Positions 1,711 to 44,496 of a stretch of DNA of 64,000 bases are shown one piece after another. The notes under the pieces were generated by a model. It was not told where the DNA came from and ran no database searches. It was given only the letters and a program-made list of their open reading frames with translations. The stretch lies in the NCBI RefSeq assembly GCF_910592395.1, contig NW_027020281.1, positions 126,001-190,000 of the forward strand, given 5' to 3'. A program made the translations under genes and the position numbers. The DNA comes from Lineus longissimus. Taxonomy: Eukaryota; Nemertea; Pilidiophora; Heteronemertea; Lineidae. Every line of letters begins with the position of its first letter. Positions within the stretch are counted from its first letter, which is position 1.

Positions 1711-1876
1711 GATGGGGTGTCTTCGCTACTAAGAAACATCTGAAAGGCTCATTCCTTCTCATGTACCATGGAGTTTTGATAAAAGAAGATGAAGCAAGGC
1801 GCAGAGAGAAAAGCTACGACAAAACCAAGAAAGGATCTTTCATGTTTTACTTCAAACATAACACGAGCACGTTATG
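1711..1876 (+). CDS. SET domain, N-terminal exon (KMT5A/SET8-like)
   Basis: Acceptor CTTCCAG before 1711 (phase 1) and donor TG|GTAAGT after 1876 (phase 2). The product opens with GWGVFATKKHLKGSFLLMYHG, the first conserved block of a SET domain (the GRGVFA...KGDFVVEYHG of KMT5A). It continues with an EAR(R)RE helix and a GSFMFYF strand, corresponding to the glycine-containing S-adenosylmethionine pocket and central sheet. SET enzymes transfer methyl groups to lysine side chains, KMT5A to histone H4 K20; the substrate here is unknown. Phase 2 to phase 2 joining with the exon at 4089 restores the cysteine that normally precedes the VDAT motif, which supports the splice. Confidence 0.8.
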
Positions 1877-2149
1877 GTAAGTTACATTTTTTTTCTACCT
1901 CACTTACTAGAAGGCTACGTTCTCGTTCTCGTTTTCGAAAACCATCCGAAACCCTCACAATGTGAAAATAAAATCGAACCCAAGAGGTGATTACGTCTTG
2001 AAAACTTAAATTGAAGTCATCCCTTTGACAGTACTTGTATCTGCTTTTCCTTCGTGGGGCGTTCCCCTGGGATTTTATTTCGAGAGAAATATTGTGTGAT
2101 CAAACATCTGTGCCAGTCGGTAGGCCTACTAATACAGTGTACAACTCGA

Positions 2150-2400
2150 CATAGTAAGGCCTACTGTACAATCCACTCTGTCGCGACACTTCCTGACCTT
2201 GAACCTCGTTACTAAAAGGTTTAGCAGACCCCATTTATACATGTAGGAGGCTTCTAAAATTTATACTATGGAGTCCGAACGTTGTGAGCATAGGAAAGTA
2301 TGTATACCCATCAAATAGTATCCACTAAGCTGCTCGAAACAGATGTCAATCACGCCTCAAGCAACAACCAAGTGTCGTGACCAAGTGTCAGTATTGGGAT
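2150..2400 (+). pseudogene. Relic of the exon found intact at 36050
   Basis: The stretch around 2315-2390 (TATACCCATCAAATAGTATCC..., CTCGAAAC, CAATCACGCCTCAAGCAAC) parallels 36077-36140, and the flank at 2150-2240 (TCCACT..GTC, ..AGCAGACCCC) parallels 35945-36018. The TTTTGCAG acceptor present before 36050 is absent here and the donor context has changed, so this copy should not splice. It shows that duplication moved material between the two ends of the locus. Confidence 0.6.
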
Positions 2401-3191
2401 GAGCGGACCCAACATGGCGTCCTCATTGCTCGGTAAAAGAAAATGCACATGTATAAGTCTCGACAACGACAGAAAAGATTTATTCCCCTTGCTTATATAA
2501 GGGTAAGTGATAGGTAAAGACAGTGGTAAAACTAAAAATACAAATAGCGAAGTCTAAGTACCTGTAAAAATGTACATGGAATACACTACGATCAGATCTT
2601 GAATATCCCTCGGACCTTTTTTTGGGGAATAGAAAATATAGATGTCAGTGACAGTGCCGATGGTAAGATTTCACATTTCTCAGGCATTGTTGAAGCAAAA
2701 AGGCGTGGCCCCAACATGGCCACCACCAGGTCTGGGACCTGTTTCCGCCAGCAAGGAAGGGGTTAACGCAAACCTTTCCGATTGGTTATTTCTAAGGAAC
2801 ACCCGAAGTTTAAAAAGTGCCAACGTTTTATTGGGAAACCGTTTCTGCCCTGCTCAGGCTCTGTCAGTATGGTCTGCAATAGGCCTATTGATTTTTTTTC
2901 TTTTCTGCAAGAATCCTGTGGGAAAATGCTATCGTTCGACACTAACGGCGCCTATTTTGCCTTAGGGTACACGCTTTTGTGGGTACATTCCCCGGCACGA
3001 GCAGATAGAACATATGGGAAAATGTTGTATCCAAATAATCGCAGCCAAGCATCATAGCATATTTTAAATTTCTCGAAAAAAGTGGGCGGGGCATACTCGG
3101 ACCAGGAAGGGTTAATCTGAACAATTGATGCTAATTTTTCTGTTCTACAAATAGGACCTTTAAATCCTGGATAGAATATGAATTACGGTAA

Positions 3192-3394
3192 CCCCTTGGC
3201 TATAGCGTCATTGAGTACACTATGTATGAAGCCCGTCGGGCGTGAATGGGGTGGGCCTACTTTGCATACTTAATTTTTGTCGTTAAAGTAATCTTAACTT
3301 TAACGAATAAAAATAGGTATACTAAGTAGGCCCGCCCCGTTCACGCCCCACGGGCTTCATACATGGTGCACTCAATGACGCTATAGCCAAGGGA
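3192..3394. repeat. Foldback/hairpin MITE-like repeat
   Basis: Two arms of about 95 bp are inverted copies of each other: CCCCTTGGCTATAGCGTCAT at the left reappears reversed as ATGACGCTATAGCCAAGGG at the right, with GAAGCCCGT..GGGCGTGAA and TTCACGCCCCACGGGCTTC inside. A short AT-rich loop separates them. No coding capacity; a small intronic inverted-repeat element. Confidence 0.8.
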
Positions 3395-4088
3395 TGACAG
3401 TATTTTATGCCGGATGAGTGAAACAGATTATTTTTTTAATTTATGACTGAATTTTGAAGAAAAAAAATCTGAACCCCTCATGAAACCATTCAACTATTAT
3501 CCCATGCAGGATAGTCTCTCGATGTTGGATCAAGTTAGTTGCATCCAATTGCAGGAAATGGCAGCGCACCATAAAAACCCCAAATAAAACGTATGATACC
3601 TATACTGCACTACTGATAGGTATCATAATGTTAAGCTCTGTGGTGTCTATAGGGGGTCACTGGGGGAATTTATGAGGGGGGTCCCAAGGGGTGTCGCGGA
3701 GGGGTCGTCGCGGGGGTAAAAAAAGACCGATAGAATTTGTTTAGAGGAGTTCTTTTTTTCATCTACAATTTTACTACAATCCTTAATGTATTACATCTCT
3801 TAAACACTATGTTTTTAAATGAATTCTTTTAAAGATTTTTAAAGATTTTGCTGTGATTTTACCTATCGCATGTCGTTGTCGGGGCCTATAGGCCTTACAA
3901 CAATTGTTATTGAGCGGGCCAAGCGGTCAATGTCATCTGGTGTTCACATGACAACGAGAGCAAATATTAATTTCCCTAGCTATGGCATTCCATATCTTTA
4001 TGATGTATGACTCAACATGACATGGCGTCAAAATCATTCGAAACACTCCATTGCCCGCGCCACTCCTTAACAATAGCCATTCTTTTAG

Positions 4089-4290
4089 TGTGGATGCAAC
4101 TAAAGACGACGGTACCTTAGGAAGGTTAGTTAATGATGCCTGGAGAGGAGCAGCCAACTGTTCAATGAAGAAGGTTTCAACAGAAAAAGGGAGTCCAGCT
4201 CTATGCCTATTCGCTAACCGCGATATAGAAATTGGCGAAGAGCTGCGATACGACTACGGGGTGGACGATCTGCCATGGAGACAACAAAAG
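4089..4290 (+). CDS. SET domain, C-terminal exon
   Basis: Acceptor TTCTTTTAG before 4089 (phase 2) and donor AAAAG|GTAAGG after 4290 (phase 0). It encodes VDATKDDGTLGRLVNDAWRG, then ANCSMKK, then PALCLFANRDIEIGEELRYD plus YG. This is the second SET block: the RLVND stretch replaces the usual RxxNH cofactor-binding motif, and GEELRYDYG carries the catalytic-type tyrosine and the pseudoknot segment. The exon closes with a DLPWR tail. The (V)DAT..D.T.GRLVND and DLPWR features resemble KMT5A-like proteins of fish and invertebrates rather than canonical KMT5A. Both SET halves look intact, so an active methyltransferase is plausible. Confidence 0.85.
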
Positions 4291-6269
4291 GTAAGGATTC
4301 ATAAAGATTGAGAAAAAACTCTGCTCTGAGTGATTTTTCCTGACCAGCGTCTCCACACATTGTCTGCATTACCTATACCAACTCCCCCGGACACCCCTGG
4401 TTGGAAAACAAACTGTAGTTTGCATCGGCTGGTTTGCACGAAACATTGTTCCTGCACTACGGGGGGGGGGGGGGGCGAAGCCGGGGGGTAAGGGGAGGGC
4501 TACATATGTACGTTTGGGACAAACCGATAGCATTGCCATATCAACATTCAAACTAAACAGCAATTCTGTAATCAAAAGATTTAACAAGAGGCCCAAGGGC
4601 CTGGCGCTCAGCTGGATGACCTAATAACATAGGACTGAGGGTGTAAAGTAGTAAATATCGGCTTTATACTACTGTTTGAAGGTCAAGAGAACACGTTATA
4701 CCACTAAAATTTCCAATGCAGAGCTGCCAGCTGAAGGAAATATGACTGAACTAATCATCCATGGTACGTAAATATTACAGGAGGCAACGGAAGATATCCC
4801 TAGTTCAGTATGTTGTATCGGTAGCTTTACAGAAAAGAAGTGTCAGAGAGGATGAGACTTCTCCATGGCCAACTGTGGTATGTCCAGGCTGGGTTGTACA
4901 GCACAAGGATACAAAATGCTGTCTGTAATTGAGAGGTATCCTGATTTAACAGAGGTCAAAATAAATAGAAATGACCAGTTTGGGACTAACACCACTGTCT
5001 TTTTTTTTTAATAAGGTAGAGATTACAGGAGTCAACAAAATTAATTTTATTGAGAGAAATTGACCTGTCCTGCAGGTGATTGGAATTTACAATACAAAGG
5101 GTCGTTTTTCATGACATTGTGCTCTACTGCGTATCCCTAGTGAGTCGATCGGGAACCAATCTATCCTTGGCGCAGACAGGTTCAAATTGGCTATATCTTG
5201 AATAGATTGAATTGCGATGAAAATCTAATGCAATAAAGGAGTAATATCGAAGAGACAAATTAATCAAACCAATTGTCCACAAACTCGGACCCTGCAATGG
5301 CGTGATGTATGCGTGCATATAAAAGTATATCAATTGGTCCGATAGAGATGATGAGGCAATGTCAATATGCCTCGTTCCTTAGTCAGCAGTATGCCCCTTT
5401 TTAAATTTTATACGGAGAAGAAGGAGAACCCAGATAGGCCTTCACATGTCGGCTTTCAAATTGCACGAACAAACTGTACTATCATCACTACTATAACTTT
5501 AAAATGCGTGCTCCTCCTACATGTAGCAATGTCTTGGCCAAAAAGGCACTTAGTCGACAGGCAAGCTAGAAGTTCAGCACCGTGAGCAGCTCCTTGGTAA
5601 GGCCATGTCAGGTTCTGCGCGCCTCTTAAGATACATCAAGTATTGAAAGCTGTGGTGAGCACATAAAAAGACCATGTTCACCTTGATTTGAAAATCCCTT
5701 CATAATCAAGGGCTACCTCTGACTAATTTATAAACCACCACCCATAAACAATAGACCACCAATTTGACCCCAGCTCCTAACTGCGGGAAAACCCAAGTCC
5801 AGCAACCAAAAGTACCAAAAATACATTTTTGTTTACATTTGAACTGCACACTATGCGTTTGTTTACAATTTCATTTCCCGCGAAATCACGAAAATCAGGT
5901 GACCAGCAATCGTGGATTGAAAATAACATTAACCTGGGTTCAGCAGGTCAGCAGGTATACCGGCTGATCCAATCATCCCCTTACAGCCAGCTGTTCAAAA
6001 GGTAACGTTATTCACCCCACAGGGAGTGCAGGTAATTGATTAAGCCCCTGCATAACTTAACAGCAATGGCTTGGCTTCTGTGAGTGGTAAGGAGAATTGA
6101 CAGTGTCCGATTAAGAATCCCTCATTACTGCTCCGCTGAAGTAAATTTTTGAATAAAACCAAGACGTTGCATCAGGGTAAGGTGTCACCACCATTCATGC
6201 AAAATTTCAAGGCGATCCAAAGCCGCTAAGTGTGACTTTATTCGTCCCCCGGCCCTTCTAATATTATTA

Positions 6270-7240: not shown

Positions 7241-7340
7241 TTTGTCTGAAATTGGCGGTGCTCGCATCGAAGCTTGAAAGTTTCTGTGGAGGTCGGTTTA
7301 CAGGTAAACAACAAGAAGGCTGATTTTTTGCTGAGTCATA

Positions 7341-8649: not shown

Positions 8650-8707
8650 AATGCTGCAACTCGTTCATTCCCTGAACTGGATGTGAAACAAATTGATAAA
8701 TCAGACG
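8650..8707 (+). CDS. Small exon after the SET domain
   Basis: Acceptor ATATTTCAG before 8650 and donor G|GTAAGAA after 8707. Phase 0 start matches the SET exon end and phase 1 end matches the following array. It encodes 19 residues (NAATRSFPELDVKQIDKSD) plus one base. No domain; a linker between the SET domain and the disordered section. Support is splice sites and phase only. Confidence 0.55.
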
Positions 8708-9693
8708 GTAAGAAAATTATTTCCTTCCTAGGAATAAATAGAGATGAGAATGGCTAAGCACCCCCCCCCCCCCCCCAAGCATTAGGTGGGTGTACCTATG
8801 CTCTGGTATCCCCTTGATACGCCAGATTTGGCCCGTTCGGATCAATTTGTCTCATAATTTACCCTTAAATACGGGGCATGGTGCTGTTAGCAGAAGCTCA
8901 TTCTCATAGAATACCTTTGATTGCCAAAAGTACCCCCTTTTTCACGATTTGTGCGGAAAAGTCTTCGTAATTGAGGTAGGAAAAAGGACCAATTTTTCGT
9001 ACTTTTTACGTACGCGCATGCGGTCACCCAAGGTATACGAGTGTGTGTTTTGGGGGGGGGCGCATCCGGCGCACGCCACCTCTATTTTGACAATTCTTTT
9101 ATTTTGACCATGTACAGAGCGCAAAAAAACATAGTTTTAATGAACAACCTCATCCATAGGATAATCCGAGGGCCTTTGACATGGGGGGTGGGGGGGCGGT
9201 CGGTATTACCCTAGCGTCAATGATGTTTGGGAAGAATTTGATCTGGGTACTTCTACGGTACTGCCACTAGCGGACACGGGGTATATCGTAAAGGCTTATG
9301 CCATTTATCGATATTTTCAAAAGCTCCTTTTTTTGTAATTTATAATCTTTTTTCTATTAGACAGTTACATGTATATATCATTAATAAGAGTCACCTTACA
9401 TGGATGATGATTCATGATTCATGATTAGGCGGTGTAAACGTTAGAGGCATGTCTTAGTTAATTAATTGTATTTGCATACGATCAATTATGGGCCTCGAAT
9501 GCCATAGATCCAGGGTGTTGTGATTACCCACAGGTTGGATTTGGATAATGGGTGGGATTGCCTCACTAAAATTGGCAGCTCAGTCAGCCAGTTCAGCAAG
9601 ATTGAGTGGCGGGTGTTTTATCATCTGCTGTTGGTATGTGTATTGGGCGCATTGGTGTCTGAACTTGAATTTAATTTCTTTCTATGGGTATAG
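8708..9693. other. Intron
   Basis: Poly-C (8761-8777) and poly-G (9051-9060, 9182-9196) tracts and AT-rich sequence. No exon or recognisable element. Confidence 0.5.
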
Positions 9694-9864
9694 CAGTTCA
9701 AAGGCCTGTTGGTGAAATAAGGACAACACCACCTGATGAGATGGATAATGAAATTAACCCTGGCACATCTGTTGCAATCACAACCTCGGAAGTTTTACAC
9801 CTTGAAAAACATGAACATGGAACCAAGGAGTCAGATGAAGGTGAAACCAAGGAGTCCAGGAAAA
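9694..9864 (+). CDS. Disordered acidic/Thr-rich exon, phase 1-1
   Basis: Acceptor GGGTATAG before 9694 and donor AAAA|GTGAGT after 9864 give a symmetric phase 1-1 exon of 57 codons. The product is Glu/Thr/Lys-rich (for example HEHGTKESDEGETKESRKS) and predicted disordered. It is the first member of the run of 1-1 exons that fills the next 24 kb. The acceptor is weak in pyrimidines. Confidence 0.55.
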
Positions 9865-10602: not shown

Positions 10603-11001
10603 ATGAAATTGTACAAGCTGGACAGAATGCACTCGTGGTAAAAGCAGCCCATTTACGGTGTACGAGCGTCCAGTGTATTCGATTTGCAGACCCACTGCAT
10701 GATCAGATTAATCTCTACCTGGATGAAATAGAAAGAAACGGAGAGTTGGGCACCTTCATTAGTGATGCGAAGCAGTCTTCGAAGGATGGTCATAAACTGT
10801 TAATCTATTGGGATGAGGAAATGCAGCAGAGGTCGAAGAACCACATGACCTACGCTGATTTGTACTATGGGGATTATTTCACTGACCAACTGCTTCACAA
10901 GGCTAGGAATGATCTCAGAGGAATCGACGAAAGTGGTCATGTTCTTATTGTACTTGCAGACCTTGTTATGGACGATTTCCACCACCAGATGTGTGCAGAG
11001 A
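10603..11001 (+). CDS. 133-codon exon, folded-looking unknown domain
   Basis: An acceptor at AAAGATTAG (phase 1) and donor AGAGA|GTAAGT after 11001 (phase 1) give a symmetric exon. Unlike its neighbours the product looks folded: mixed hydrophobic and charged, with segments such as QINLYLDEIERNGELGTFIS, KLLIYWDEEMQQ and HVLIVLADLVMDDFHHQM. I do not recognise the fold. The acceptor lacks a good polypyrimidine tract, so the 5' border may lie further upstream. It may be a distinct functional module between the SET domain and the repeat array. Confidence 0.6.
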
Positions 11002-11145: not shown

Positions 11146-11210
<65 letters not shown>

Positions 11211-14950: not shown

Positions 14951-15545
14951 CAGGGTGTTAAAAAAAGTCCGCAAACTTTAATCTCTTATAAAATTTGATA
15001 CAGGTATCACTTGAAAATGACACTGGTACCAATGAAAACTAGGAGCTCAAGCATTTTAGCTGGTGAAAGTCACACATCTCTAGCATCAATGGTTATTGCG
15101 TAACAGGCGCTCAGAAAAAGGGAGCGTTTGTCGGACCGTGCAATTACTGGCCAATTTTAGCACCTCAGATGAAGCAATTACCCACTAAACGGTCATCGTT
15201 CTTTTAAAGCTTAGAAAAGCATCGAAAAAGTCTTGTGTTACAGCGAAGACCTTATTCGGATGTAAGGAACAACTTTCCTGCCTGGAATGAGATGCTGCAT
15301 AGCGATCGGACTCAGCCAAGTGGAGCCATCTCGCTCCTCAATTGATGATTACTGACGCGGTCATAAAAACGCATTCCTTTTTTGAGCGCCTGTTACGCAA
15401 TAACCGTTGATGCTAGAGAGGTGGGACTTTCACCAACAAAAATGCTTGAGCTTCTAGTTTATATTAGTACCAGTTGCTTCCTTTTATGCTGCCTGTTGCG
15501 AATTCTATAAGAGATAAAGGTTTGTGGACTTTTTTTAACACCCTG
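14951..15545. mobile_element. Tc1/mariner-like MITE (TA target site)
   Basis: Inverted ends CAGGGTGTTAAAAAAAGTCC / GGACTTTTTTTAACACCCTG, with arms of about 175 bp, flanked by TA on each side (CGTA|CAGGG and CCCTG|TATC). The interior does not code for a transposase. Its right 259 bp (15287-15545) lie inside the 1,804-bp tandem duplication and recur at 17091-17349. Confidence 0.85.
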
Positions 15546-15763
15546 TATCACCGGCCCACTTATTACCCTGCTTGCATTTCCAAAGTCATCTGGCTTCATA
15601 CGTCTCGTGTCTACATAAGCAATGGCGGCTTGGGCAAGAAATAATGTAATCTTCACGTTTCAACAGGGCTAGGGATTATGACAAGGTAATCGAAATGTGC
15701 GCAGAATCATCCGTTCCCATCTTTTAATCAACATCTGGTGCTCATGGATACATTTTCCTTTAG

Positions 15764-16021
15764 GTAAGAAAGTGAAGCCGCCACCATCCCAGATAACCTC
15801 CACGAAGCACGAGGGATCCTATTCAGTCATCAAGAATTTGAACAGAGACCATGCAGCAACTCTAGAGAAGCAAGAAATTCATTCACCCAGGACCCCCGAT
15901 TTATCTGTCCAGCCACAGAAAAACATTTGCCCATTCATCGAGAAAAAGGAACATTATTCAGGAACTACGGCAGCTACGGTCCATATCATATCAGGGAGCA
16001 GAGAACTTCTACCAATAAAAG
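15764..16021 (+). CDS. K-type array exon (long form), 86 codons, phase 1-1
   Basis: Acceptor TCCTTTAG, then GTAAGAAAGTG as the first exon bases, and donor AAAAG|GTAAAG. The product begins (G)KKVKPPPSQITSTKHEG and contains EKQEIHSPRTPDLSVQPQKN. The first two thirds align with the shorter K exons at 21121, 22748, 25805 and 26426; the rest differs and resembles the end of E-type exons. Lys/Ser/Pro-rich, predicted disordered. Confidence 0.75.
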
Positions 16022-16463
16022 GTAAAGAGGCATTTCGTTCTGATCATTTGTCCTATCTGACCTTCATACCATGACCCCCTCCCCAAGGAAAAAAAGAACA
16101 AAATTATCTGTCACGTCGTACATTATGATATATTTGACCTGTAAAGCGTGCGATTCATTAGTGGCTTTCAATGGGTACTGCAATTGGACTACAATCTTGC
16201 ACCGCACGTTCCGGCCAGACAGGTTTTTTATACTGTACCGACTTATGTGGCGTATAATAGAAGGGCACAACCAGTCCCTAATCCCAGTCAAAAGAACGAA
16301 TCAGGCCATGGCAAGGGGTTCTGGGGCGGTAACTAATACTTTATGAGGTGACGCTTTAACTAAGTTTTTACAGTATATTGGCAGCAACAAGAATACCTCA
16401 TCAACATTCTCAGATAATATGATAATAGTATCGTCAAACTAAAATGGTGTTTACCTCCTTTAG

Positions 16464-16574
16464 ATGCTGGAGAGCAAGTTGCAAGCAAGGGGCAATACTC
16501 CAAAAGGATCTGTTTAGACTCCTCAAAACTGGCTGAAGCAGGGAATTGCAAGCTGACTAAAAGGACGGGGAAAC
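16464..16574 (+). CDS. D-type array exon, 37 codons, phase 1-1
   Basis: Acceptor CTCCTTTAG, donor AAAC|GTGAGT. Encodes DAGEQVASKGQYSKRICLDS and ends KRTGK. Nearly the same layout as 33111 (DAKVKVASKGQCSKGISAD), so K+D exon pairs have been duplicated as units. Confidence 0.75.
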
Positions 16575-17567
16575 GTGAGTAGCCCTACATGGGTGACTTT
16601 TCATGGCTTGATCAAGTTGAACAGGAAACTGTTCCTCTCTGGCTCGTATCACTGAAGAATAAGAGTTAATCATGTGGACGCAAGATTACATTGACGGCTG
16701 AGTGCGCTCAATAACCATGTCAAGTTGTATTAATCCCAACTACGACAGAAAGGATTTAAGGTATTTGTAAAATGACACATGATTGAAATTCAGCAAAACC
16801 AAGAATGCCCCTAAACATCCCAAATATATCGAGTAATCATTCATGCCCTATACCACCTTGTTCAGCAATACACATAGACCCCCAAATGATTCACAAAGAT
16901 GACCTGTCTTGCAGCATTATGTAACAATCTACTTCAAACAAAAGGATTCTTGCTGCAAATGCCCAGGGTTTAGACGGGACCGAAATGAAATTTGAACATA
17001 ATTGACCTAAGGATCCCCTTCAGATGCAGCTAGCAATTAGATTAGGAGAAATTCATTCTCAACGCTGCAAACGGCAACACTATCACCCTCATGAGATGCT
17101 GCATAGCGATCGGACTCAGCCAAGTGGAGCCATCTCGCTCCTCAATTGATGATTACTGACGCGGTCATAAAAACGCATTCCTTTTTTGAGCGCCTGTTAC
17201 GCAATAACCGTTGATGCTAGAGAGGTGGGACTTTCACCAACAAAAATGCTTGAGCTTCTAGTTTATATTAGTACCAGTTGCTTCCTTTTATGCTGCCTGT
17301 TGCGAATTCTATAAGAGATAAAAGTTTGTGGACTTTTTTTAACACCCTGTATCACCGGCCCACTTATTACCCTGCTTGCATTTCCAAAGTCATCTGGCTT
17401 CATACGTCTCGTGTCTACATAAGCAATGGCGGCTTGGGCAAGAAATAATGTAATCTTCACGTTTCAACAGGGCTAGGGATTATGACAAGGTAATCGAAAT
17501 GTGCGCAGAATCATCCGTTCCCATCTTTTAATCAACATCTGGTGCTCATGGATACATTTTCCTTTAG

Positions 17568-18267: not shown

Positions 18268-18378
18268 ATGCTGGAGAGCAAGTTGCAAGCAAGGGGCAAT
18301 ACTCCAAAAGGATCTGTTTAGACTCCTCAAAACTGGCTGAAGCAGGGAATTGCAAGCTGACTAAAAGGACGGGGAAAC
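18268..18378 (+). CDS. D-type array exon, duplicate of 16464
   Basis: Same 37 codons, acceptor and GTGAGT donor as 16464-16574, offset by 1,804 bp. Confidence 0.7.
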
Positions 18379-29601: not shown

Positions 29602-30001
29602 GTAAGGGCAACTTTTGTTCACCATTCCTCATCATATTCACGTTGTTTCGATGCTAGTTTCCATTTCATAGTGACAGGTATCGGATCAGGATAGAAGGGA
29701 GATCTTTCCAGCATTATAGAAATTAACCCCATCCAAACCAACACCATCTTTTGAGGAACCCCCCCGAATGAAAATTTGAGTTTATAGCGTTTTCAGGACT
29801 CACCTCACATTTCTGTATAACTAGTAGTGGTGCCAGGGCCCCAAGTTGAGAAAAAGTGGGTCACGTCATGACGTACTTTTGCATTTGAGCTTATAGCGTT
29901 TTCAGGACTCACCTCACATTTCTGTAAACCCAAACCATTGAATTAATCGCATAACAATCAATGCAAACAGTTGGCTACTTTGGACCAAGATTATCGATAC
30001 A

Positions 30002-30381
30002 TATTAAGACGATTGCTCCAAACGAACGGCAAAGAACGCTAACGACGTAGATCATAATATATCTATAATCTCTCAAATGGATAACATCTTTACGTTTCGG
30101 TGACAATGCGAATACTCACTAAAATCATGAGAAAGAGTCCAAGCATCCCTTAACCTGATACTATGAGATAACAATAGCAGAATACGATTGACGTCGATTT
30201 CGTGGAAGCGTGATACCATTTCGGATGATAGTGACTCATCAGGCCTATGAGCAACAGTCAGCTGATAGTGATGACACGAATCTGCATCCGTGTCGGGTGG
30301 TACAAAGATGCTGGGCTAATTAGAGTAAATGAAACTGTAAACCCATTAAACTATCTATAACATTTAAAACCCTTCTGAACA
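30002..30381 (-). repeat. 3' LTR of the BEL/Pao element
   Basis: 380 bp, near-identical to 32706-33085. Left flank ATACA. The outer TG has become TA. Confidence 0.9.
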
Positions 30382-30795
30382 TTCTCCCCCTCCTGATATG
30401 ACAATATCAGCATGATGAATGATAGAAACAATGCCAGTCCAAAAGCAAATTTTGACTCTCCATAAGACGTTCATGCTGGCAATTGGTAACGAAGAGTTCA
30501 CGATTTCTTCATTTATAATGATAGTTGAAATGTTCGATAATCCAAACAGTCGGCATTCATAGAAAGGAAAGTCTCTCAGATAACCTAAGCGTGGCTTGAC
30601 ATCTTTCTCGGTCGACAGGCGTCGTAACCCCGACGAAGGGAGGCGAAACGGGTGCTACACTGTGCCCAACAGTGCCCCGTAGGCTGACTAGGGGAAGGAG
30701 AAGCCTTAATTTCATCCTTAATAGACGGGTCATAGACCAAGTCTACCTGTTACCCCATAAGTTCATGACGAAGTTTACGTATCCTCGAAGTGATC

Positions 30796-32569
30796 TTATA
30801 CACGGCGAACGGGTATATCCAGTTTCCAAAACAAAGTTAATGGTGAAAGGCACGATATCCATATCCTCGGAGTAGGCCACACTAATTTTAGCAGTCGATG
30901 GTGGTTGGATTTGCATTCTCCTATTCCACACGGTCTACTTCTTTTACAGTCGGCTCCTCTGTGGTTTCCAAGGCACCTAAAGCAAAGATTTAGCCCTTTG
31001 GCTTTATCCCATCGTAGGTTAACATCCATGGCTTTGAACGTGTCACATACCCATACCCCGTGCTGACCGCTACAAACCTTGCACTGTTTCTCGTTTATCT
31101 GGGTCGTGGTAACGAACGTTTTTGACGACGCAGCTTTATCTGTTCGGGGATGACTTTCCTTGATTCCCTGGATGGTCTCAGCGGCAGTGGTTAGGAATTC
31201 GGACTCATCATTGATGAACTTTCTCAATGTTTCTACTTTCTGTTCTAATCTGTACTCCGAAATCCACCGGTGATACTTAGCCAGTAAGCCTTCACTCAGC
31301 TTGCGTTGTAGTGATATGTAGAGGGACCCACTACCTAATTCTGCTGCTTGTCCTCCATCGATTAGATTTACTACCAGAACATCTAGCAATTCTGAAAATC
31401 GCTCTAGGTCCTGGCAATTACCGTCTCGGATCTGCCGAAATCTCTCTAACTGTTCAAGTCTTAAAGTGATTTGTCGTCTCTTACCGCCATATTTCCTTTC
31501 GAGCCTGTCCTTGGCCACGTCGTAGGCAGCAGCCGAATGTCCCAAGCCTTCAATTACTTTAAGAGCTTCCCCTTGCAAGCTGTCCCTTAATCGAAGCAGC
31601 TTGTATTCTTTTGTAGTTACTGCATTGTCGACACAGGCCTTGAAGGCTGCGTTCCAGCTTTCACTCCTCTTGTTACCGGCAAACTTTGGGACTGGGACTC
31701 TCGTTAATAGTCTAGATGGATCAAATCTGACCGGTGGTTCAGTCGCTGCATCTGGGGGCGTTCCTTCTAGCAGATTGTACAAAGATGCTCCTGGGTGCGG
31801 AGTAGGAGTCGAATAGTAATGAAGCGGAAACCTCTGCTGCTGTGTTGGCAGTCCAACTGGCGAAAGAAAAGGCTGCTTTGATGCCAATACGGGCGGCTGT
31901 GGCATCATAGCGGGCGACTGTATCGTCAAGTGTCAGGACTGGCGGCTGTGGCGACATAACGGGCGGATGCGGCGTCAGGATTGGCGGCTGTGACGATTCG
32001 AACACTCGAGCTTCTACATTATCGTGATGTGGTGGATTTTCCTGACGTGGCGTCGGCTTTTTGTCCGCTTCTTCCTTGAGAGACATTCCAGGGGCCCCAG
32101 TAGCTTCATCACCCTTAGCTTCGTCACTCGTGGCCTTTTCTACCTTGGCTTCGTCACCTGTACTATCGTTATATTCCGAAGGTTCCGCAAAGCTGACATT
32201 TCGTCTGGCATGCCGGGGTGGAGGCAATGTGGTGAGGCTGGCCTCCATCCTCCTAATTTCTTCTCGCGTCTTCTCAAGTTCATCCTCCAATGACTTATAA
32301 TTGAAGTGACGATCAGTTTCTAGGCCTACACTTTCAAACTGAGGGCTATGCATATGTGACGAGAGTTGGGACTTACTTAATTCACGCCGCTGTTTCATGT
32401 AGTCGTGTGCTACTTGTTCGGCTAAGTCATATTTGTTGGCGATCTCGTCCATCTCGTCATCAAAAACGGCTGCCTTTTTCTCCAGGCTGGATCCGGAGCC
32501 TCGGCAACGGTCGGTATATTCCGAATATGTCATGTACACATCTTGGTATATTCCGTATAAAGTATCCAA
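30796..32569 (-). pseudogene. BEL/Pao gag, frameshifted
   Basis: Gag is spread over two overlapping minus-strand frames, 32569-31739 and 31929-30796, so a frameshift near 31925 breaks it; the expected beginning (ATG about 32677) is in yet another frame, with a second shift near 32575. The N-terminal part is coiled-coil and Glu/Lys-rich. The second frame has a capsid-like region (VPKFAGNKRSESWNAAFKA..., DSLQGEALKVIEGL, LERKYGG) typical of the BEL/Pao DUF1759 family. It ends in paired zinc knuckles CKVCSGQHGVWVC and CFRCLGNHRGADC with a following CGIGECKSNHH. Pol is absent, so the copy cannot move by itself. Confidence 0.88.
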
Positions 32570-32705
32570 TCGTAATCGAATATCCGCATTTGTACGTTTA
32601 TGTCGAATTCCGAAAACAAACGATCCATGCCTTTCTCAAAGGCTTTTCGAATACGGGAACGCTCACTGACAAAATCCATCTGTACAACTGCGCTCTGCTA
32701 CCAAA

Positions 32706-33085
32706 TGTTAAGACGATTGCTCCAAACAAACGGCAAAGAACGATAACGACGTAGATCATAATATATCTATAATCTCTCAAATGGATAACATCTTTACGTT
32801 TCGGTGACAATACGAATACTCACTAAAATCATGAGAAAGAGTCCAAGCATCCCTTAACCTGATACTATGAGATAACATTAGCAGAATACGATTGACGTCA
32901 ATTTCGTGGAAGCGTGATACCATTTCGGATGATAGTGACTCATCAGGCCTATGAGCAACAGTCAGCTGATAGTGATGACACGAATCTGCATCCGTGTCGG
33001 GTGGTACAAAGATGCTGGGCTAATTAGAGTAAATGAAACTGTAAATCCATTAAACTATCTATAACATTTAAAACCCTTCTGAACA
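32706..33085 (-). repeat. 5' LTR of the BEL/Pao element
   Basis: 380 bp, TGTTAAGACG...CTTCTGAACA read on the plus strand. Right flank ATACA, only 25 bp before the exon at 33111. Confidence 0.9.
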
Positions 33086-33562: not shown

Positions 33563-33655
33563 ATGCCGAACAGGATGTTGAAAGCAAAAAGGGGAGAATC
33601 AACGAGTCTCGTAATACCCATCAGTCTAAACGAACTGATAAGACAGAAAAACAAT
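33563..33655 (+). CDS. D-type array exon, 31 codons, phase 1-1
   Basis: Acceptor ATATTGCAG, donor ACAAT|GTGGGT. Encodes DAEQDVESKKGRINESRNTH and ends DKTEKQ, most like 14706. The donor (GTGGGT) is weaker than the GTGAGT of its relatives. Confidence 0.65.
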
Positions 33656-34183: not shown

Positions 34184-34251
34184 TTGATGCTCTTATGCAG
34201 CCAAGGGTTGTGAATCTACTAGGAAGCGTCACTGATGGTTCTACTATTGAT
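34184..34251 (+). CDS. Small exon, phase 1-0 (pair A, first half)
   Basis: Acceptor ATCGTTGCAG, donor GAT|GTAAGT. Encodes DALMQPRVVNLLGSVTDGST plus ID. Sister of 35194 (YAVMQPVVVDLCRSSDGSS...). It links the 1-1 array to a phase 0 partner at 34805. Confidence 0.7.
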
Positions 34252-34804
34252 GTAAGTTGACAAGGAAAGTTCACCAACTGATCGGGAGATGTCATGGTTG
34301 TTCCATTCAAACTCTTTACCAGAAAAAAGCCCTCTCCCCTTTCCTCATATTCTATCTCCTCCTCTTCCTATCCTCCCCTACCACTCCAACCTCTCCGGGC
34401 CAATTCCCATGCCTCATATTTTTTCCCCTTTCCCGACATTGTCTCTCGCTCTCCAACGGCCCCAGGCGAATTAAACCTTCCCAGCCTTCTCGATGTGGGC
34501 GGAGGGGGGGGATAAATGACCCTTATGACAAGCAGCTCCTCATGGTAATCGTTTAGTGCAACCCCCGAGGTGCAACCGTAAAAAAGCAAGACGCGCCTAA
34601 ATATTCGGAAAGGGAAAGACAAGGCGAGAGAATTGAGAGGGTGGAGGGCCTGGGTGGGGGAGGGAGAGTTGGCACTAGAGACATCTCGTCATAGTGCCAA
34701 AGTCTCGTAATGAAAGTATTTCTTGAGAATCATCTTATCATGCTTATTGCTCTGATGGTTCAAACATGAAAGACATTACAGAATCAGCGATTCACTTTTT
34801 TTAG

Positions 34805-34886
34805 GATGTGGGCAGCCAGCAACAAATGAAGGAGATGGACAGCAGGCAACAAATGACTTATCATTTCGAAGAAACTGCCGAGAAAG
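34805..34886 (+). CDS. Small Gln-rich exon, phase 0-1 (pair A, second half)
   Basis: Acceptor TTTTTTTAG, donor AAAG|GTGAGG. Encodes DVGSQQQMKEMDSRQQ and ends FEETAEK. The ending matches the exon at 37055 (LEETTEK), so the two exon pairs A and B are duplicates. Confidence 0.7.
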
Positions 34887-35193
34887 GTGAGGTCACTTCT
34901 ACCTAATTCACAAAAAAACGCCAGCAGGAGGGGGGGGCAGGGAGCAAATCATATGTCGACCCAAACAGGTCCAGGATCTTTCGATGATAATGCCTTTGAT
35001 GAGAAACGCACGGGGAGAAAGACAGGCTACTGCATGGTGACATGCAAGATATTCTTTCCTGTAGCTAATTTAGCTCTCGATAAGTTGTTTCTGATATCCG
35101 CTAGTCAAAGATAGATAAAAACGAGAGGGCGAACAAAATTACTGATTGCGGGAAATTTCATGTCTCTCAAAATTGTGGTGTGTTTTTTTTCAG

Positions 35194-35264
35194 TTTATGC
35201 TGTAATGCAGCCAGTTGTTGTGGATTTGTGTAGGAGCTCTGACGGTTCTTCTTTAGAGACTGAT
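35194..35264 (+). CDS. Small exon, phase 1-0 (pair B, first half)
   Basis: Acceptor TTTTTTTTCAG, donor GAT|GTAAGT. Encodes YAVMQPVVVDLCRSSDGSSL plus ETD; paralogue of 34184. Confidence 0.7.
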
Positions 35265-36049
35265 GTAAGTATGTTACTTTGCTCTGCCCCACCGCAATTC
35301 TACAAATTGAGGGGTCAAAAGAGCATGCGTTCCCCTTTGAATCATAAAGTGCCCAAAAAAGTATTTTGCATTTACTAGGTCGTAGTAGGTAACAAAGTAA
35401 TCTTCACTTCTACTCTGCTGAACACATCAACGCTATTTAGAATCCACAAACCTTAACCCTTTCTCGAAATATGTATCAATAATGTGACAAATGTTACAAT
35501 CGGATGACATTAAAACTACTAACTGGCTCCACTATTTTAGACATACATAGCACTCTTCCTTAATATATTGACTTCAGGAGCATTCCATTTTATAAACATG
35601 TGGTAGGCCTATTCATCTCCAATCTCTCCTGAATTACAATGGGCACAAAATCGTGCAGTTCGATCTCTCTTTCTCAATATCAAAACAAAACGCGTGTAAT
35701 AGCCATACAATATCATCCCTTATTTTGGTGACCAGATGGAATTAGAGAGGTTGATCTGAGAACGAAAACGAATTCAGCTACGAGCACCAAAATCAAAATG
35801 GCTCATAACCAAATTATGAAGTCGCATTCCACATTAATATAAGTACCGGTACACCTACAGCGCGAGGGCTTATCAATATGGTGAAACGTCAAATCGCTTC
35901 CTTCCTAGATTGTCTGGAACCGGTGCTAATCGACCTCGTACTGTAAAATCCACTTTGTCTCGCACTTCCAAATCCTCACCCTGGGTTACTGAGTACTCAA
36001 AGGCCTAGCAGACCCCTATTATAAGATCTGGGTAGATTTTATTTTGCAG
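35265..36049. other. Intron
   Basis: AT-rich, no recognised element. The last 110 bp share sequence with 2150-2270. Confidence 0.5.
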
Positions 36050-36142
36050 AATACAAACCTTGTGAATACAAGAAGGTATACCCATCAAATAACATCCACC
36101 CAGTTGCTCGAAACTGATGCCAATCACACCTCAAGCAACCAG
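36050..36142 (+). CDS. Candidate small exon, phase 0-0
   Basis: Acceptor TATTTTGCAG; the donor would be CAG|GTTCAA, a weak site but the same type as CAG|GTTCGT at 39421. Encodes NTNLVNTRRYTHQITSTQLL and an NHTSSNQ end. The ITST motif recurs in the next exon. Phase fits on both sides. It may be skipped without breaking the frame. Confidence 0.45.
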
Positions 36143-36289
36143 GTTCAAAACTTGGAAGTGTCGAGACAGAGTGATTTCTACAGTACGTCGTTCTCGTTCT
36201 CGGAAAACATCTTAATGCCTCCATTTCTGGATATTCTTGCATGAATGAACCTTGATTGTGTAAAACCGAAACCTTGTTCACTTCTTCAG

Positions 36290-36451
36290 GTTATATATCC
36301 AATTGTCACCTCTACCCATGCCAAAAGACAATGCGGAAGTGAAGACTGTACCATCGATTGTCCGATCATCACCTCTACCCCTGCCAAAGGACAATGCGGA
36401 AGTAATGAATTTACCATCGATACAACAGCTAACAAGGCCTTTTGCAATCAG
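36290..36451 (+). CDS. Cys-containing exon with internal duplication, phase 0-0
   Basis: Acceptor CACTTCTTCAG, donor CAATCAG|GTAACT. 54 codons made of two copies of a unit: VTSTHAKRQCGSEDCTID and ITSTPAKGQCGSNEFTID. No known domain; the paired cysteines do not form a standard zinc site by themselves. Confidence 0.65.
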
Positions 36452-37054
36452 GTAACTGTTTAGATTACAAGCAACGAGCTGTGCGAGATAGAGACCTTCG
36501 CGCACAAACGGAATAGGTTATTTGTGACAAATAATCCCTTGGCCAGATCCACACTCTATTCCCTTTACAAGAATGCTCTTTATAGGATTTAACCGTTTAG
36601 GCCATAGGACGAATCTGAAAAAGCTGCTAGAAATTGTTTAGGCCAACACACTCAGGGACCACCTGAAAATTGGTGTGTAGGATAATTGAGGGGTGCCCTT
36701 TCTGAATATAAGTTTTTCTAGTTCGTAAATGTTCACATTTACGGTAAATTAACCCCTTTCTTGACGGGGCGCTCAAAAACCGATACTAAGTTCTTTAGAC
36801 TATTCCTTAGCCCTTTTCTGCACCAAAACACAATACATGATGGTCAGTAAGTTGTACAGCTAATTGCAGATGAACATTTATGTTATTTTAGACTAGTTGC
36901 TTAGTGTGCATTCTTGTAAAGGGAATGATGTTTCTTTTTACACGGAGTACGCAGGCGGGACTGAAATGTGTAAAACTCAAATCCATCTCCTGCATGTCTA
37001 CTTTCCACGGGTTCACCTTAACCTTTCCCAATTAAGTATGTTAATTTATTTCAG
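36452..37054. other. Intron
   Basis: Nothing recognised beyond ordinary AT-rich sequence. Confidence 0.5.
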
Positions 37055-37106
37055 GACGAGAGTAGCCGACTGATGGCATGTATCTTGGAGGAAACCACGG
37101 AGAAAG
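37055..37106 (+). CDS. Small exon, phase 0-1 (pair B, second half)
   Basis: Acceptor TTATTTCAG, donor AAAG|GTATGT. Encodes DESSRLMACILEETTEK; paralogue of 34805. Confidence 0.65.
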
Positions 37107-37299: not shown

Positions 37300-39420
37300 A
37301 TACTTACACGTGCGGGGGATGCAAGAGAACCTTTAACGACTTAGATAGATTCATAGCACACAAGCATACGCTGTGTAGGGGTGATAGCAAAAACGTTCCA
37401 AGTATTGTCTTGAAAGAAGAGAAGAGCGCTGACGAGGGTACAAGGCAACCAACTCAAGAAAACACGCATCTGCTGTCATGGGTGGAGAGGAGTCAGCCTG
37501 ATGGTCAGGAAGGAATGACAAATCTGCAATTATTTGTGGGAAGAGGCCAGCCAGATGGCCAGGAACGAACTGAGAAAAAAGGTCACACCACTGCAAGTGG
37601 GGGAGATTGTCATGACGACGGAGATTTTGTTTGCATGCGATCCTTCCAGTTGCAAGTGTCATTTGAAGATGAAGATGATTCAATTATTGGGCAAACCGAG
37701 CACGAATCTAATGAGGGGCGTATATTGCAGGAATTAACAGATGAAAATGCAGATCGACACTCAACAAAGGGGGCTGGGGGTCTAGTGCAGGAGCCAACAG
37801 AGGAAGATGCTGATAAAAAATCAACTGTGGGGAGTCTAGTACAGGAGCCAACAAAGGAAGATTCTGATCGACAATCAATTGAGGCGAGTCTAGTGCACGA
37901 GTCAACAGACGGAGATGCCGAACAACAATCAACAGATGGGTCAAAAGATGGGAGTCTAGTGCAGGAGTCAACAGACGGAGATGACGATCGACAATCAACA
38001 GAGGGGTCAAAAGATGGGAGTCTAGTGCAGGAGTCAACAGACGGAGATGACGATCAACAATCAACAGATGGGTCAAAAGATGGGAGTCTAGTGCAGGAGT
38101 CAACAGACGGAGATGCCGAACAACAATCAACAGAGGGGTCAACAGATGGGAGTCTAGTGCAGGAGTCAACAGACGGAGATGACGATCAACAATCAACAGA
38201 TGGGTCAAAAGATGGGAGTCTAGTGCAGGAGTCAACAGACGGAGATGCCGAACAACAATCAACAGAGGGGTCAACAGATGGGAGTCTAGTGCAGGAGTCA
38301 ACAGACGGAGATGACGATCAACAATCAACAGAGGGGTCAACAGATGGGAGTCTAGTGCAGGAGTCAACAGACGGAGATGACGATCAACAATCAACAGAGG
38401 GGTCAAAAGATGGGAGTCTAGTGCAGGAGTCTACAGACGGAGATGACGATCGACAATCAACAGAGGGGTCAAAAGATGGGATTCTGATGCAGGAGTCAAC
38501 AGACGGAGATGACGAAGATGCTGATCAACAATCAACAGAGGGCTCAAAAGATGGGAGTCACGTGCAGGAATCAACAAACGGAGATGACGATCGACAATCA
38601 ACAGATGGGAGTCTAGTGCAGGAGCCAACAGAGGAAGATGCTGATCAACAATCAACAGATGGGAGTCTAGTGGAGGAGCCAACGGAGGAAGATGACGATC
38701 AACAATCAACAGATGGGAGTCTAGTGCAGGAGCCAACAGAGGAAGATGCTGATCAACAATCAACAGATGGGAGTCTAGTGGAGGAGCCAACAGAGGAAGA
38801 TGCTGATCAACAATCAACAGATGGGAGTCTAGTGGAGGAGCTAACGGAGGAAGATGACGATCAACAATCAACAGATGGGAGTCTAGTGGAGGAGCTAACG
38901 GAGGAAGATGACGATCATCAATCAACAGATGGGAGTCTAGTGCAGGAGCCAACAGAGGAAGATGCTGATCAACAATCAACAGATGGGAGTCTAGTGGAGG
39001 AGCTAACGGAGGAAGATGACGATCAACAATCAACAGATGGGAGTCTAGTAGAGGAGCAAACGGAGGAAGATGACGATCAACAATCAGCAGATGGGAGTCT
39101 AGTGCAAGAGTCGATAGATGGAGATGACGATACTCAGGAATCAACAAATGGAGATGCTGATCGACAATCAACAGAAGGAAGTCTAGTGCAGGTGTCGATT
39201 GATGAGGAATCAACAGAGGGAAGCCTATGGCAGGAGCCAGATGATGGGGAACTTGACCGCCAATCGACAGATGGGAGCGAACTGCAGGAATCAAATTCTG
39301 TTGAAGCAGATCATCAATCAACAGAAGGGAGTGATTCAGAAAATTTAATTGACGAGGATGCCGAGAAGAAAAAAGAGTGTGTATCAGGACCAGGCGATGT
39401 AAAATCCAAGTATCCATCAG
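37300..39420 (+). CDS. C2HC zinc finger plus long acidic repeat exon
   Basis: Acceptor CCATTTCAG, donor ATCAG|GTTCGT, phase 1-1, 707 codons. It opens with YTCGGCKRTFNDLDRFIAHK followed by HTLC, a C2HC finger like the N-terminal one of BCL11 proteins. After a linker with the two imperfect units SQPDGQEGM / GQPDGQER comes an acidic Ser/Thr/Asp/Glu/Gln region: first 22-residue units (STDGSKDGSLVQESTDGDDD plus RQ), then 18-residue units (STDGSLVQEPTEEDADQQ), about 30 units in all, ending in degenerate copies. The exon is continuously open. The region is disordered and strongly negative and may act as a spacer or an interaction surface. Copy number is likely to vary between alleles. Confidence 0.85.
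37770..39180. repeat. Coding minisatellite (66-bp and 54-bp units)
   Basis: Tandem units share GGGAGTCTAGTGCAGGAG. The 5' part uses a 66-bp unit and the 3' part a 54-bp unit, both multiples of three, so unit gain or loss keeps the frame. Some neighbouring unit pairs are identical (38090-38300), showing recent expansion by unequal exchange. Confidence 0.95.
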
Positions 39421-39634: not shown

Positions 39635-40958
39635 TGACGGTTCCTGGGTTTCGTAGAAAAGAAGATGGTTCCAGAAACTACGATAGACGTCATGCATGTT
39701 ATTACTGTGGACGGTTGGTGGCAAAGATACGAAGGCATTTAGAACAGTGTCATGGAGATGAGGTGGAGGTTATTCGCATCCTTGCATTAAATGACAAGCA
39801 AAGAGCGTCTAAAGAGATTGAAAGGATTCGTTTGAAAGGAAATTTTAATCATAATATCAATGTGCTGCACTTAGGGGAAGGTGAACTCATAGTCTCGAGG
39901 CGTCCAAGTGGTAGGCGCAATGCTGATGAATATCTGCCATGTGTCCACTGCTTGGTATTCCTCCATCAGGATGAAGTGTGCAGGCATGCAAAGATATGCC
40001 AGTTCAATCCGGGCTCAGCTGCCGCGGCTGCCGATGATGACATAGATGATGACGATGCCAATGACAACGACACTCACCAAGACCGTGTGCAGTCATCAAA
40101 GGTGCAAAGTCGTATTTTCCTGGATGCTGCAACAATTGGAAATGACGGTAGTGCGGCCGAATGGTGTCAGCTTAAGGAAGCGGTTATCTATCAGATGCGA
40201 CATGACACTGTGGTATCGATAATTGAAAAAGATTCCCTCATAATGAAGTTTGGGGTGATCTTGCTGAACAAACTTGGTCACAAAAAGCGAAACATCATAT
40301 CTCAGCGTCTGCGTCAGCTAGGGAGATTCCTTATTGCCTTCCGTACATTACACAATGACAACTTCATCTCCCTATCTGAAATATTATGTGGGAAACATTT
40401 TGATGTCGCAGTGAAAGCAACTAGGGAGCTTTGTTGCGTGAGTAAGGAGACAACAATGACTGGTGTAAATCTATTGGACAGTCCGAGCATTGGTCTCCAC
40501 ATCGGACATACGCTGAGGAAGTGTGCGCTGGTGAAACACGGTATTGGGTTAAGGAGAATGGACAATGCCATGGTTGACGAAGCTCAAGTATTCCTCCAGT
40601 TGTTTAATGCCGAGTGGACTGAATTAGTATCATCTCATGCACTACAGAGTCTCAAGGAACGTAAATACAACAGCGTTGAACTGATTCCTATTACTGCCGA
40701 TTTAATTAAGCTGCGTGGGCATCTTCAAAAGATTTTGCCTGAACTTGAGACAGATCTCCAGCAGAACACATCACCAGCTTCATGGCGAAAACTCGCGGAG
40801 GTCGTATTTTCAATCGTGACATTGTTTAACAAGCGGAGAGGCGGTGAGGTCGCAAGGATGCACCTATCATGCTTTGTTGAGAGGCCAAAGTGGAAGGAAC
40901 ATCGAAACGAAGACATCCTATTATCACTCTCTGCACTTGAACTGAGGCTGATGGACAG
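39635..40958 (+). CDS. Zinc fingers and N-terminal part of tyrosine-recombinase-like core
   Basis: Acceptor CTCTTTGCAG (phase 1), donor GACAG|GTAAGC (phase 2), about 441 codons. Near the start HACYYCGRLVAKIRRHLEQC plus H forms a C2H2 finger (C-x2-C-x9-H-x4-H), and LPCVHCLVFLHQDEVCRHAK plus IC forms a C2HC finger. An Asp-rich linker follows, then a helical region comparable to the core-binding domain of tyrosine recombinases. The end carries NKRRGGEVARMHL; the Arg three residues before Glu (codon 40837-40839) sits where integrases have their first catalytic Arg (xRxxE). I recognise the layout as that of uncharacterised fish and invertebrate proteins, not a named gene. Confidence 0.85.
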
Positions 40959-41520: not shown

Positions 41521-41692
41521 CTTAGACATGGTCCAATTACCCGGAAAGCGTAACAGAAAAGTGCCGTTACTCCTCAAGCCGGACTGGATAAGAGCGATGC
41601 AGCTTCTTGTTGAAAAGCGAACCGAATGCGGTGTTGACAGTGAATATTTCTTTGCGATTCCTGGAGCAAAGTCGTATCTATCACCTTGGAAG
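41521..41692 (+). CDS. Recombinase-like core, beta-hairpin exon
   Basis: Acceptor TTTCTTACAG (phase 2), donor GGAAG|GTAAGA (phase 0). The start SLDMVQLPGKRNRKVPLLLK fits the beta-2/beta-3 hairpin of tyrosine recombinases, in which a Lys contacts the scissile site (GKGNKxRxVPL type). The rest, FFAIPGAKSYLSPW, matches the loop leading to the next helix. The Ser codon is made across the splice (AG+C). Confidence 0.8.
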
Positions 41693-43012: not shown

Positions 43013-43105
43013 GTACTGAATAATCATGCGAAATTGGCAGAATGCTCAAGACCTGATCTCATATCAACAACGAAGCTGAGAAAATACACCGCAACTGTCA
43101 CGCAG
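43013..43105 (+). CDS. Recombinase-like core, second Arg exon
   Basis: Acceptor TCTCTTGCAG, donor ACGCAG|GTAAGC, phase 0-0, 31 codons. LISTTKLRKYTATVTQ corresponds to the HxxR box of tyrosine recombinases. The Arg (43079-43081) is present; the His position holds Thr, a substitution seen in some family members. Confidence 0.8.
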
Positions 43106-43320
43106 GTAAGCAAAAAGAAACGATTTCTAAAGAACATGGGGATATGAATTATGATTAAGTCATGTTCCCCGTTTCATTACGTTATGACGACTTTACCGTT
43201 ATTATAGTTTGCCAATGATACAGTCAATTGTCTACTGGGTGAAATTGACCGTTGTAGATGATCCAGTAAATTTTCTACTCGTATACTCGGTGAAATTGAC
43301 AATTGGATATCTTCTTACAG

Positions 43321-43516
43321 ATACTAGGATTACAACCTGGAGAGTTGGAGTGGCTGGGAAACCATCTAGGCCATACCGTGGAGGTTCACAAGGATTCGTA
43401 TCGCTTGCACGAATCGACGATTGAAATGGCGAAGGTATCCAAGGTTCTTTTGGCCATTGAAAACGGTACAGCGGGAAATTTCCAGGGAAAATCATTGAAT
43501 GAGATTCAGCTAGACG
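43321..43516 (+). CDS. Recombinase-like core, LGH and Tyr exon
   Basis: Acceptor TTCTTACAG (phase 0), donor GACG|GTACGT (phase 1). LEWLGNHLGHTVEVHKDSYR carries the LGH histidine (43372-43374) and, nine residues on, the candidate nucleophilic Tyr (43399-43401), the standard spacing of the family. The following helix TIEMAKVSKVLLAIENG is hydrophobic and probably packs on the core. So the Arg-Lys-x-Arg-His-Tyr set is complete except the His of HxxR. Confidence 0.85.
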
Positions 43517-43858
43517 GTACGTTTATACAAGATAATTCAGCCATTTCGTTCGAATGGGAAGAATATCCTATAGGGCACTGCGTTTTTAACCCATTAATAA
43601 TGCATGACACCCTTAGATATGGTCATATCAAAGTCACAGCTCTACCTGGCCCATGTTTTATGCTAAAGACACTTTGTAGGATATTACAGATGTAATCCCT
43701 CAGAGCATCAGCTGCAACCAACAAACAATGATGATCGTCATTTACTGAATTAACTGTAATGTTTTTGGATGCTCAGCAAGAAGCTGTAAATAATGTGTCA
43801 TGTGCCTGCATGCATTGAATAGTGTGTTGTTCGCTTTAAATTTGACAATTCCTTGCAG

Positions 43859-44496
43859 ATGTTGTGTTGCCTGATGGCAGTTTAGACGATGGAAGCATCA
43901 ACGAAGATCCATCCATGACAGAAGGTCTCAATGATTCAAAGGGCAATGGAAAGGTTTCGAAGTGTAGCCGTGCGACTGTGCCAAATGGAAGAAAGACATT
44001 AAAGGGGTGCGAAAAGAACAAGTTGGTGGAAAAGAATAAGAAAGGTCAGCAAAGTTCCGAACACTCTCGTCGTCCAAAACGGAGTACAAAAGAAGTCAAA
44101 TACGATGTAGGTGAAACTGAAGTTTTAGATGATTCCTTCATCGATGCTGATTACAGAGAGGAATCCACCAGTGACTCCAGCAGTGATTCCGGAAATGACA
44201 GCTTACAATCGGAAAATATGCCACCTAAGGTAACCAAAGCTAAAGATTCAAAGTCTGGTAAGAAAACATGGGTTAAATGGTCAAACGGAGAAATTGCTAT
44301 TCTCCAGACTCATTTTCAATGTAATATTAGAAATGACAGAGTTCCCAGAAAGGCTGACGTTGATAAGGTTATGAATAAGTTCCCGGTCTTACAAACACGG
44401 AATTGGGTGCAAATCAAGAGTAAAGTTCAAAATCTGATTAAACGTAAATCAAGTCTTCGTAGTGATATACTGAAAAAGGGATCAGAGAGGCTGTGA
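43859..44496 (+). CDS. C-terminal exon: charged linker and Myb/SANT-like motif
   Basis: Acceptor TTCCTTGCAG (phase 1); runs to TGA at 44494-44496. An acidic start (DVVLPDGSLDDGSINEDPSM), a basic stretch (RRPKRSTKEVKYD), an acidic Ser cluster (STSDSSSDSGNDS), then KTWVKWSNGEIAILQTHF with VPRKADVDKVMNKFP, LQTRNWVQIKSKVQNLIKRK. The tryptophan spacing and helices resemble a Myb/SANT DNA-binding repeat. This is the end of the large gene; the exon is intact. Confidence 0.82.

Follow-up and report, generated by a model that had tools for sequence, protein, structure and literature searches.

A predicted protein family of Lineus longissimus joins a KMT5A-type SET domain to a putative tyrosine recombinase core and includes an apparently mobile subfamily

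Can a SET domain of the histone-methyltransferase type and a tyrosine-recombinase-like core be encoded as one protein, and would such a protein belong to a transposon or to its host? The question is raised by a stretch of 64,000 nucleotides from the nemertean Lineus longissimus (contig NW_027020281.1, positions 126,001 to 190,000 of the forward strand; C29:126001-190000 in the contig numbering used here), the whole of which is referred to as the window. Its source contig, C29, comprises 221,868 bases of a 391-Mb genome assembled in 30 contigs. The window probably holds a member of a family that encodes one fused protein, made up of a KMT5A-derived SET domain, a variable linker, a zinc-finger-like region, a tyrosine recombinase core and a Myb/SANT-like end, and in which at least one subfamily is a self-moved DNA element.

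In the predicted gene model, 33 exons extending from 1711 to the TGA at 44494-44496 join to give 2,963 residues, with the last codon as the sole stop. AG precedes all 33 exons, and GT follows the first 32. The first-pass annotation had described these exons as lying on one strand, in domain order and with compatible phases, and this was confirmed by the 33-exon open frame. The phase series observed was 1-2, 2-0, 0-1, a run of 1-1 (the last at 33563-33655), 1-0, 0-1, 1-0, 0-0, 0-1, 1-1, 1-2, 2-0, 0-0 and 0-1, which is compatible throughout but contains one 0-0 exon fewer than had been listed. Given that selection of the 17 middle exons was confined beforehand to phase 1-1 candidates, compatibility in this part of the model is partly by construction. 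Exon 1711-1876 is entered in phase 1, and therefore the true protein start would lie upstream of 1711. The model consists of the following features, for which the codon positions of the first catalytic Arg (40837-40839) and of the Asp in the RLVND motif (4135-4137) were placed by hand on the sequence.

1711..1876, + strand: SET exon 1 (GWG..., KMT5A type), phase 1-2; from splice sites and phase, and KMT5A alignment
4089..4290, + strand: SET exon 2, phase 2-0; PF00856 E value of 3.4e-7 for the open frame 4021-4311, and KMT5A alignment
8650..9864, + strand: post-SET exons 8650-8707 and 9694-9864; from splice sites and phase
10603..11001, + strand: conserved exon of ~132 residues, fold unassigned; 58% identity over 104 residues to the paralogue on contig C10
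14216..33655, + strand: 17 phase 1-1 exons, mostly lysine-rich, several of them tandem duplicates; from splice sites and phase
34184..37106, + strand: five short linker exons (1-0, 0-1, 1-0, 0-0, 0-1); from splice sites and phase
37300..39420, + strand: exon with one C2H2-like motif (zf-C2H2 E value of 0.23, below cut-off) and 66/54-nucleotide acidic repeats
39635..40958, + strand: Cys/His motifs, putative recombinase N-terminal region and first catalytic Arg (codon 40837-40839); from alignment and gene model
41521..41692, + strand: putative recombinase exon with catalytic Lys (codon 41546-41548); from alignment and gene model
43013..43105, + strand: putative recombinase exon with second catalytic Arg (codon 43079-43081), His of HxxR replaced by Thr; from alignment and hhalign
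43321..43516, + strand: putative recombinase exon with the His of GH (43372-43374) and the Tyr (43399-43401); from alignment and hhalign
43859..44496, + strand: last exon, SANT/Myb-like C-terminus and stop TGA; 55% identity over 78 residues to the C10 paralogue

No Pfam match was obtained for the 132-residue exon or for the last exon of the window; the C-terminal end of the related copy on contig C11 gave a match to Myb_DNA-bind_4 with an E value of 0.011, below cut-off.

The proposal that a SET domain, zinc-finger-like motifs, a recombinase-like core and a SANT/Myb-like end reside in one protein gains support from paralogues elsewhere in the genome. The strongest case is a single open frame of 1,496 residues on contig C4 (C4:16164001-16172000, locus L029), which starts within SET and continues through acidic repeats into the recombinase. 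The C10 paralogue (loci L024-L027) has, all on one strand, SET exon 2 and lysine-rich pieces, the 132-residue piece, the C-terminus and a recombinase in four pieces, whose breaks, as judged from sequence matches, fall at the exon junctions of the window. Because the C4 frame and the C10 paralogue are both independent of phases, a chance chain of splice phases was rejected. Searches of the genome returned at least 85 recombinase matches, grouped into 50 loci, and at least 67 SET matches, both figures being lower bounds. A SET match was present no more than 50 kb upstream on the same strand at 24 of the 50 recombinase loci, where ~0.2 would be expected (~0.0043 per locus), and at none of the 50 was the nearest SET on the opposite strand. 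Viewed from the SET side, a recombinase lies downstream of 26 of the 67 matches.

A KMT5A-like gene and a recombinase gene might also produce such pairs by travelling together in one element or block while being transcribed separately, and the gap between the two halves does vary, from 2.6 kb in C4 to 35 kb in the window. However, C4 has both halves in one stop-free open frame, and the window frame spans 33 exons, with phase having been used to select those in its middle; two neighbouring genes are considered highly improbable. Several observations nevertheless weigh against a fused protein. The C4 frame includes SET only in part, with a score of 24.0 bits against PF00856 (cut-off 22.4) over profile positions 61-105, which correspond to the C-terminal part of the domain. 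At C10, the lysine-rich matches come before the 132-residue piece, opposite to the order in the window; SET exon 1 could not be located there, and other repeats make up the DNA immediately upstream. The remaining 26 of the 50 recombinase loci lack an upstream SET (24 with none within 50 kb and two with a downstream match only), and the 24 paired loci are not independent, since the window copy, its haplotig and groups of near-identical copies are counted among them. Across the 40 kb examined at L020, a KMT5A-like SET locus on C8, no recombinase was matched. The fusion is, in addition, a prediction from genomic sequence. Taking both sets of observations together, the SET-recombinase fusion is very likely to be real.

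The joined SET domain (1711-4290) matches PF00856 with an E value of 2.1e-16. In a comparison with PDB, the 14 best of 110 matched sequences were all KMT5A/SETD8, with E values from 2.9e-24 (PDB 5teg) to 2.2e-22 and the next at 5e-14; by this measure the SET domain of the window is of the KMT5A type, and KMT5A/SETD8, an H4K20 monomethyltransferase, is its closest solved relative. The two differ at the NHS motif of KMT5A. In the window, RLVND at 4123-4137 carries an Asp (codon 4135-4137) in place of the motif His, and the same change from NHS to ND was observed in all six copies aligned (window, C10, C11, C1, C4 and L020 on C8), every one of which, apart from L020 across its 40 kb examined, adjoins a recombinase. 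The final YxYG is kept in all six, as YDYG in five, including the window, and as YSYG in C4. A separate KMT5A-like locus in the same genome (L003, C2:26290666 region) has an ordinary NHS, like KMT5A, and is perhaps the host KMT5A gene. Given that NHS is altered to ND in every aligned copy of the family, it is possible that activity of its SET domain is reduced or changed, and the domain may have a reader-like role. KMT5A-A-like proteins with similar tails are presumably present in fish and invertebrate databases.

Assignment of the downstream core was approached by alignment. Arg, Lys, Arg, His and Tyr (R-K-R-H-Y) are invariant and in catalytic order in all four copies aligned, three of which are 35-40% identical to that of the window. 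When compared by hhalign with an alignment of XerC, XerD, FimB, FimE and lambda Int, the catalytic residues were paired in order, with a score of 26.4 and an E value of 0.0029 for one comparison; the maximum score in 30 column-shuffled controls was 20.0. Here, the competing explanation is an unrelated fold in which the motif register is coincidental, and several results lean that way. No Pfam or NCBIfam recombinase model matches the core, and DUF3504 gave no match to the 806-residue protein of the window (Pfam, E values up to 5) or to the C4 and C11 proteins (E values up to 1). The best PDB match of a four-copy profile, XerA, was not significant (E value of 0.071) but was in catalytic register, and unrelated PdxS chains followed at 0.26. 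The hhalign probability was 10.6%, and the His of HxxR is lost, replaced by Thr in three copies and by Arg in the fourth. Coincidence is nevertheless difficult to reconcile with invariance of the five residues across copies so diverged from that of the window, or with a catalytic-order alignment to five known recombinases that outscores all 30 shuffles, and an unrelated fold appears most improbable. We infer that the core is a tyrosine recombinase.

Comparison of the window with C10 across five exons gave pN values of 0.04-0.24 and pS values of 0.65-0.85. For four of the five exons dN/dS is undefined because dS is saturated; for the fifth, the 132-residue exon (10603..11001), a value of 0.157 was obtained. 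Between the C11 and C9 copies, dS was 0.011 and dN was 0.002. By these estimates, the SET and recombinase halves are both under amino-acid constraint; in element copies, this constraint may stem from selection on lineages that are active and not from use by the host.

Whether members of the family move was assessed from the ends of near-identical copies. In subfamily A, the C11 and C9 copies are 99.1% identical up to a single point at which similarity ends; the bases beyond it differ, and the flanks are unrelated. With C11 DNA across this end point as the query (40 of 77 candidates scored), six sister copies, two on C8 and one each on C9, C15, C10 and C6, matched at 99-100% identity, and all six matches start at query base 494. 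The shared 3' end lies ~1.8 kb past the end of the C11 coding frame. An eighth copy, on C5, matches on the 5' side and is absent from the six sister matches. The repeat that flanks the C11 copy was rejected as an empty insertion site, since it also ends by itself at the junction and therefore provides none. Within the C11 copy, a 1.15-kb high-copy repeat (L040:3235-4383) was observed that is absent from this position in the C8:15.28-Mb, C5 and C9 copies. Neither a 5' terminus of subfamily A, whose 5' end lies beyond C11:5864500, nor a target duplication was found, and both results count against mobility. Judged at one end, transposition of subfamily A is well supported.

The behavior of the other copies bears on a different history, in which a SET-recombinase gene of single origin was domesticated and then multiplied by segmental duplication into a host gene family, with no copy being self-mobile. 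Members of subfamily B (C5, C8, C10 twice and C15) are 99-100% identical where compared, and a distance of 138.8 kb separates the two C10 copies, which have a downstream flank in common, as segmental duplication would produce. Three copies on C13 fall inside 0.65 Mb, the window copy has no near-identical counterpart other than its C6 haplotig, and dN is low against a mostly saturated dS between the window and C10. The subfamily-B flank is unfavorable to movement by the element itself, as is rearrangement of the C5 copy by an apparent C5-specific inversion. Base 5160 of L026 was rejected as a subfamily-B terminus, given that similarity continues across this base in C8, C15 and the two C10 copies and is interrupted in C5 alone. 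Other repeats occupy the C10 sequence ahead of SET exon 2, and no 5' end of subfamily B can therefore be taken from it. A host gene family does not, however, account for six subfamily-A sisters on five large contigs that all start matching C11 at one base, nor for the unrelated flanks of C11 and C9, and it is judged unlikely. The earlier suggestion of a domesticated transposon protein thus divides in two. Its transposon half is supported by subfamily A, with a precise shared 3' end and near-identical dispersed copies, but nothing shows domestication of the window copy, which is a single diverged intact locus and may be either a domesticated gene or an old element.

Blocks of 99.5-99.9% identity align window bases 47-50599 with C6:7125600-7175599, the value falling to ~96% across the acidic repeat. 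On this basis C29 is read as a haplotig of the C6 region, and the alternative that C29 arose from the C6 locus by transposition was rejected. A 1.8-kb direct duplication at 15287-18677 spans two of the 1-1 exons and is present in both haplotypes; the C6 haplotype is without a 764-base insert found at 18678-19441. In intronic sequence on the opposite strand, what we take to be a BEL/Pao-like element (30001-33004, - strand) contains a DUF1759 frame (E value of 5.6e-11) and is flanked by 300-base direct repeats of 98% identity. Downstream of the gene, a partial second copy of the acidic repeat exon is located at 46672-47840 (+ strand), and a second conserved frame occurs both at 52519-53061 (+ strand) and in the C10 paralogue (L026:4920-5645), the two being 47% identical. 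This frame has a Cys-rich end and no significant Pfam match, and the DNA around its C10 counterpart recurs on C13 and C15 with a spacing of ~2,157 bases. A GC-rich, strongly skewed repeat array occupies 59565-64000, extends beyond the end of the window and is also found at L028.

On the reading favored here, the family consists of recombinase elements that have captured a SET domain, which is altered at NHS. In the mechanism we propose, at least subfamily A would be a DNA element mobilized by its own recombinase, which would cut and rejoin the element ends by means of the conserved Tyr together with R-K-R-H, probably through a circular intermediate. Introns could be kept in such an element because no RNA step would be involved. 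Least certain are the suggestions that element or target DNA is bound through the zinc-finger-like and Myb-like regions and that the SET domain contacts nucleosomes. At donor or target chromatin, the SET domain might deposit a lysine mark or, since NHS is altered in every aligned copy, might only bind. A fuller version, to which we attach somewhat less than even chances, is that a still or recently mobile lineage of animal tyrosine-recombinase transposons captured a KMT5A domain, giving a single protein that mobilizes the element and also marks or reads nucleosomes, with the window copy as a single-copy descendant kept by the host. If true, the union of a recombinase or transposase with a histone-methyltransferase-type domain would tie the choice of target or donor, or escape from silencing, to a chromatin mark within one polypeptide. 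Animal genomes would also gain a lineage of recombinases that DUF3504 does not match, and a comparison within one genome could draw on young copies that are nearly identical as well as on an old member present once.

No such fusion is described in the titles and abstract openings listed for open-licence literature on SET/KMT5A with Cryptons, tyrosine recombinases or transposable elements, a body of text that excludes Repbase. Among known systems, Cryptons (CryptonA; Kojima and Jurka 2011, PMC3212892) likewise have a recombinase gene inside a DNA element. In that paper, no terminal repeats were found for animal Cryptons, a proposed circular DNA intermediate is cited, and the word "set" occurs twice in the main text, in neither case denoting the SET domain. 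The three CryptonA recombinases searched there match DUF3504, whereas the window family does not, and animal Cryptons are described as being without a C-terminal domain; by contrast, the window family has a SANT/Myb-like C-terminus, many introns and an N-terminal SET domain. Compared with the CryptonA tetrad R-H-R-Y, the family keeps R, R and Y, together with K and the His of GH, the HxxR position being that occupied by Thr (three copies) or Arg (one copy).

DIRS1-type retroposons combine an inactive DNA N6-adenine methylase with a tyrosine recombinase and a reverse transcriptase, according to the ALOG paper (PMC3537659). They resemble the window family in that a single element carries a methylase domain together with a tyrosine recombinase, a zinc-binding region lying ahead of the latter, and differ in that the methylase is an inactive DNA N6-adenine methylase rather than a SET domain. 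No reverse transcriptase was detected in the element frames scanned (six of 26 listed frames), which represent part of the element and do not cover the middle of subfamily A; the lone RVT_1 frame encountered lies in the C9 flank, outside the subfamily-A 3' end. Finally, KCTD1, KIAA1958, ZMYM2-4, QRICH1 and WOC are Crypton-derived and, like the window protein, contain a recombinase-derived domain within a larger protein. According to the abstract of PMC3212892, their DUF3504 domains are without most of the catalytic tetrad, whereas the window family, which has no DUF3504 match, keeps R, K, R, H and Y.

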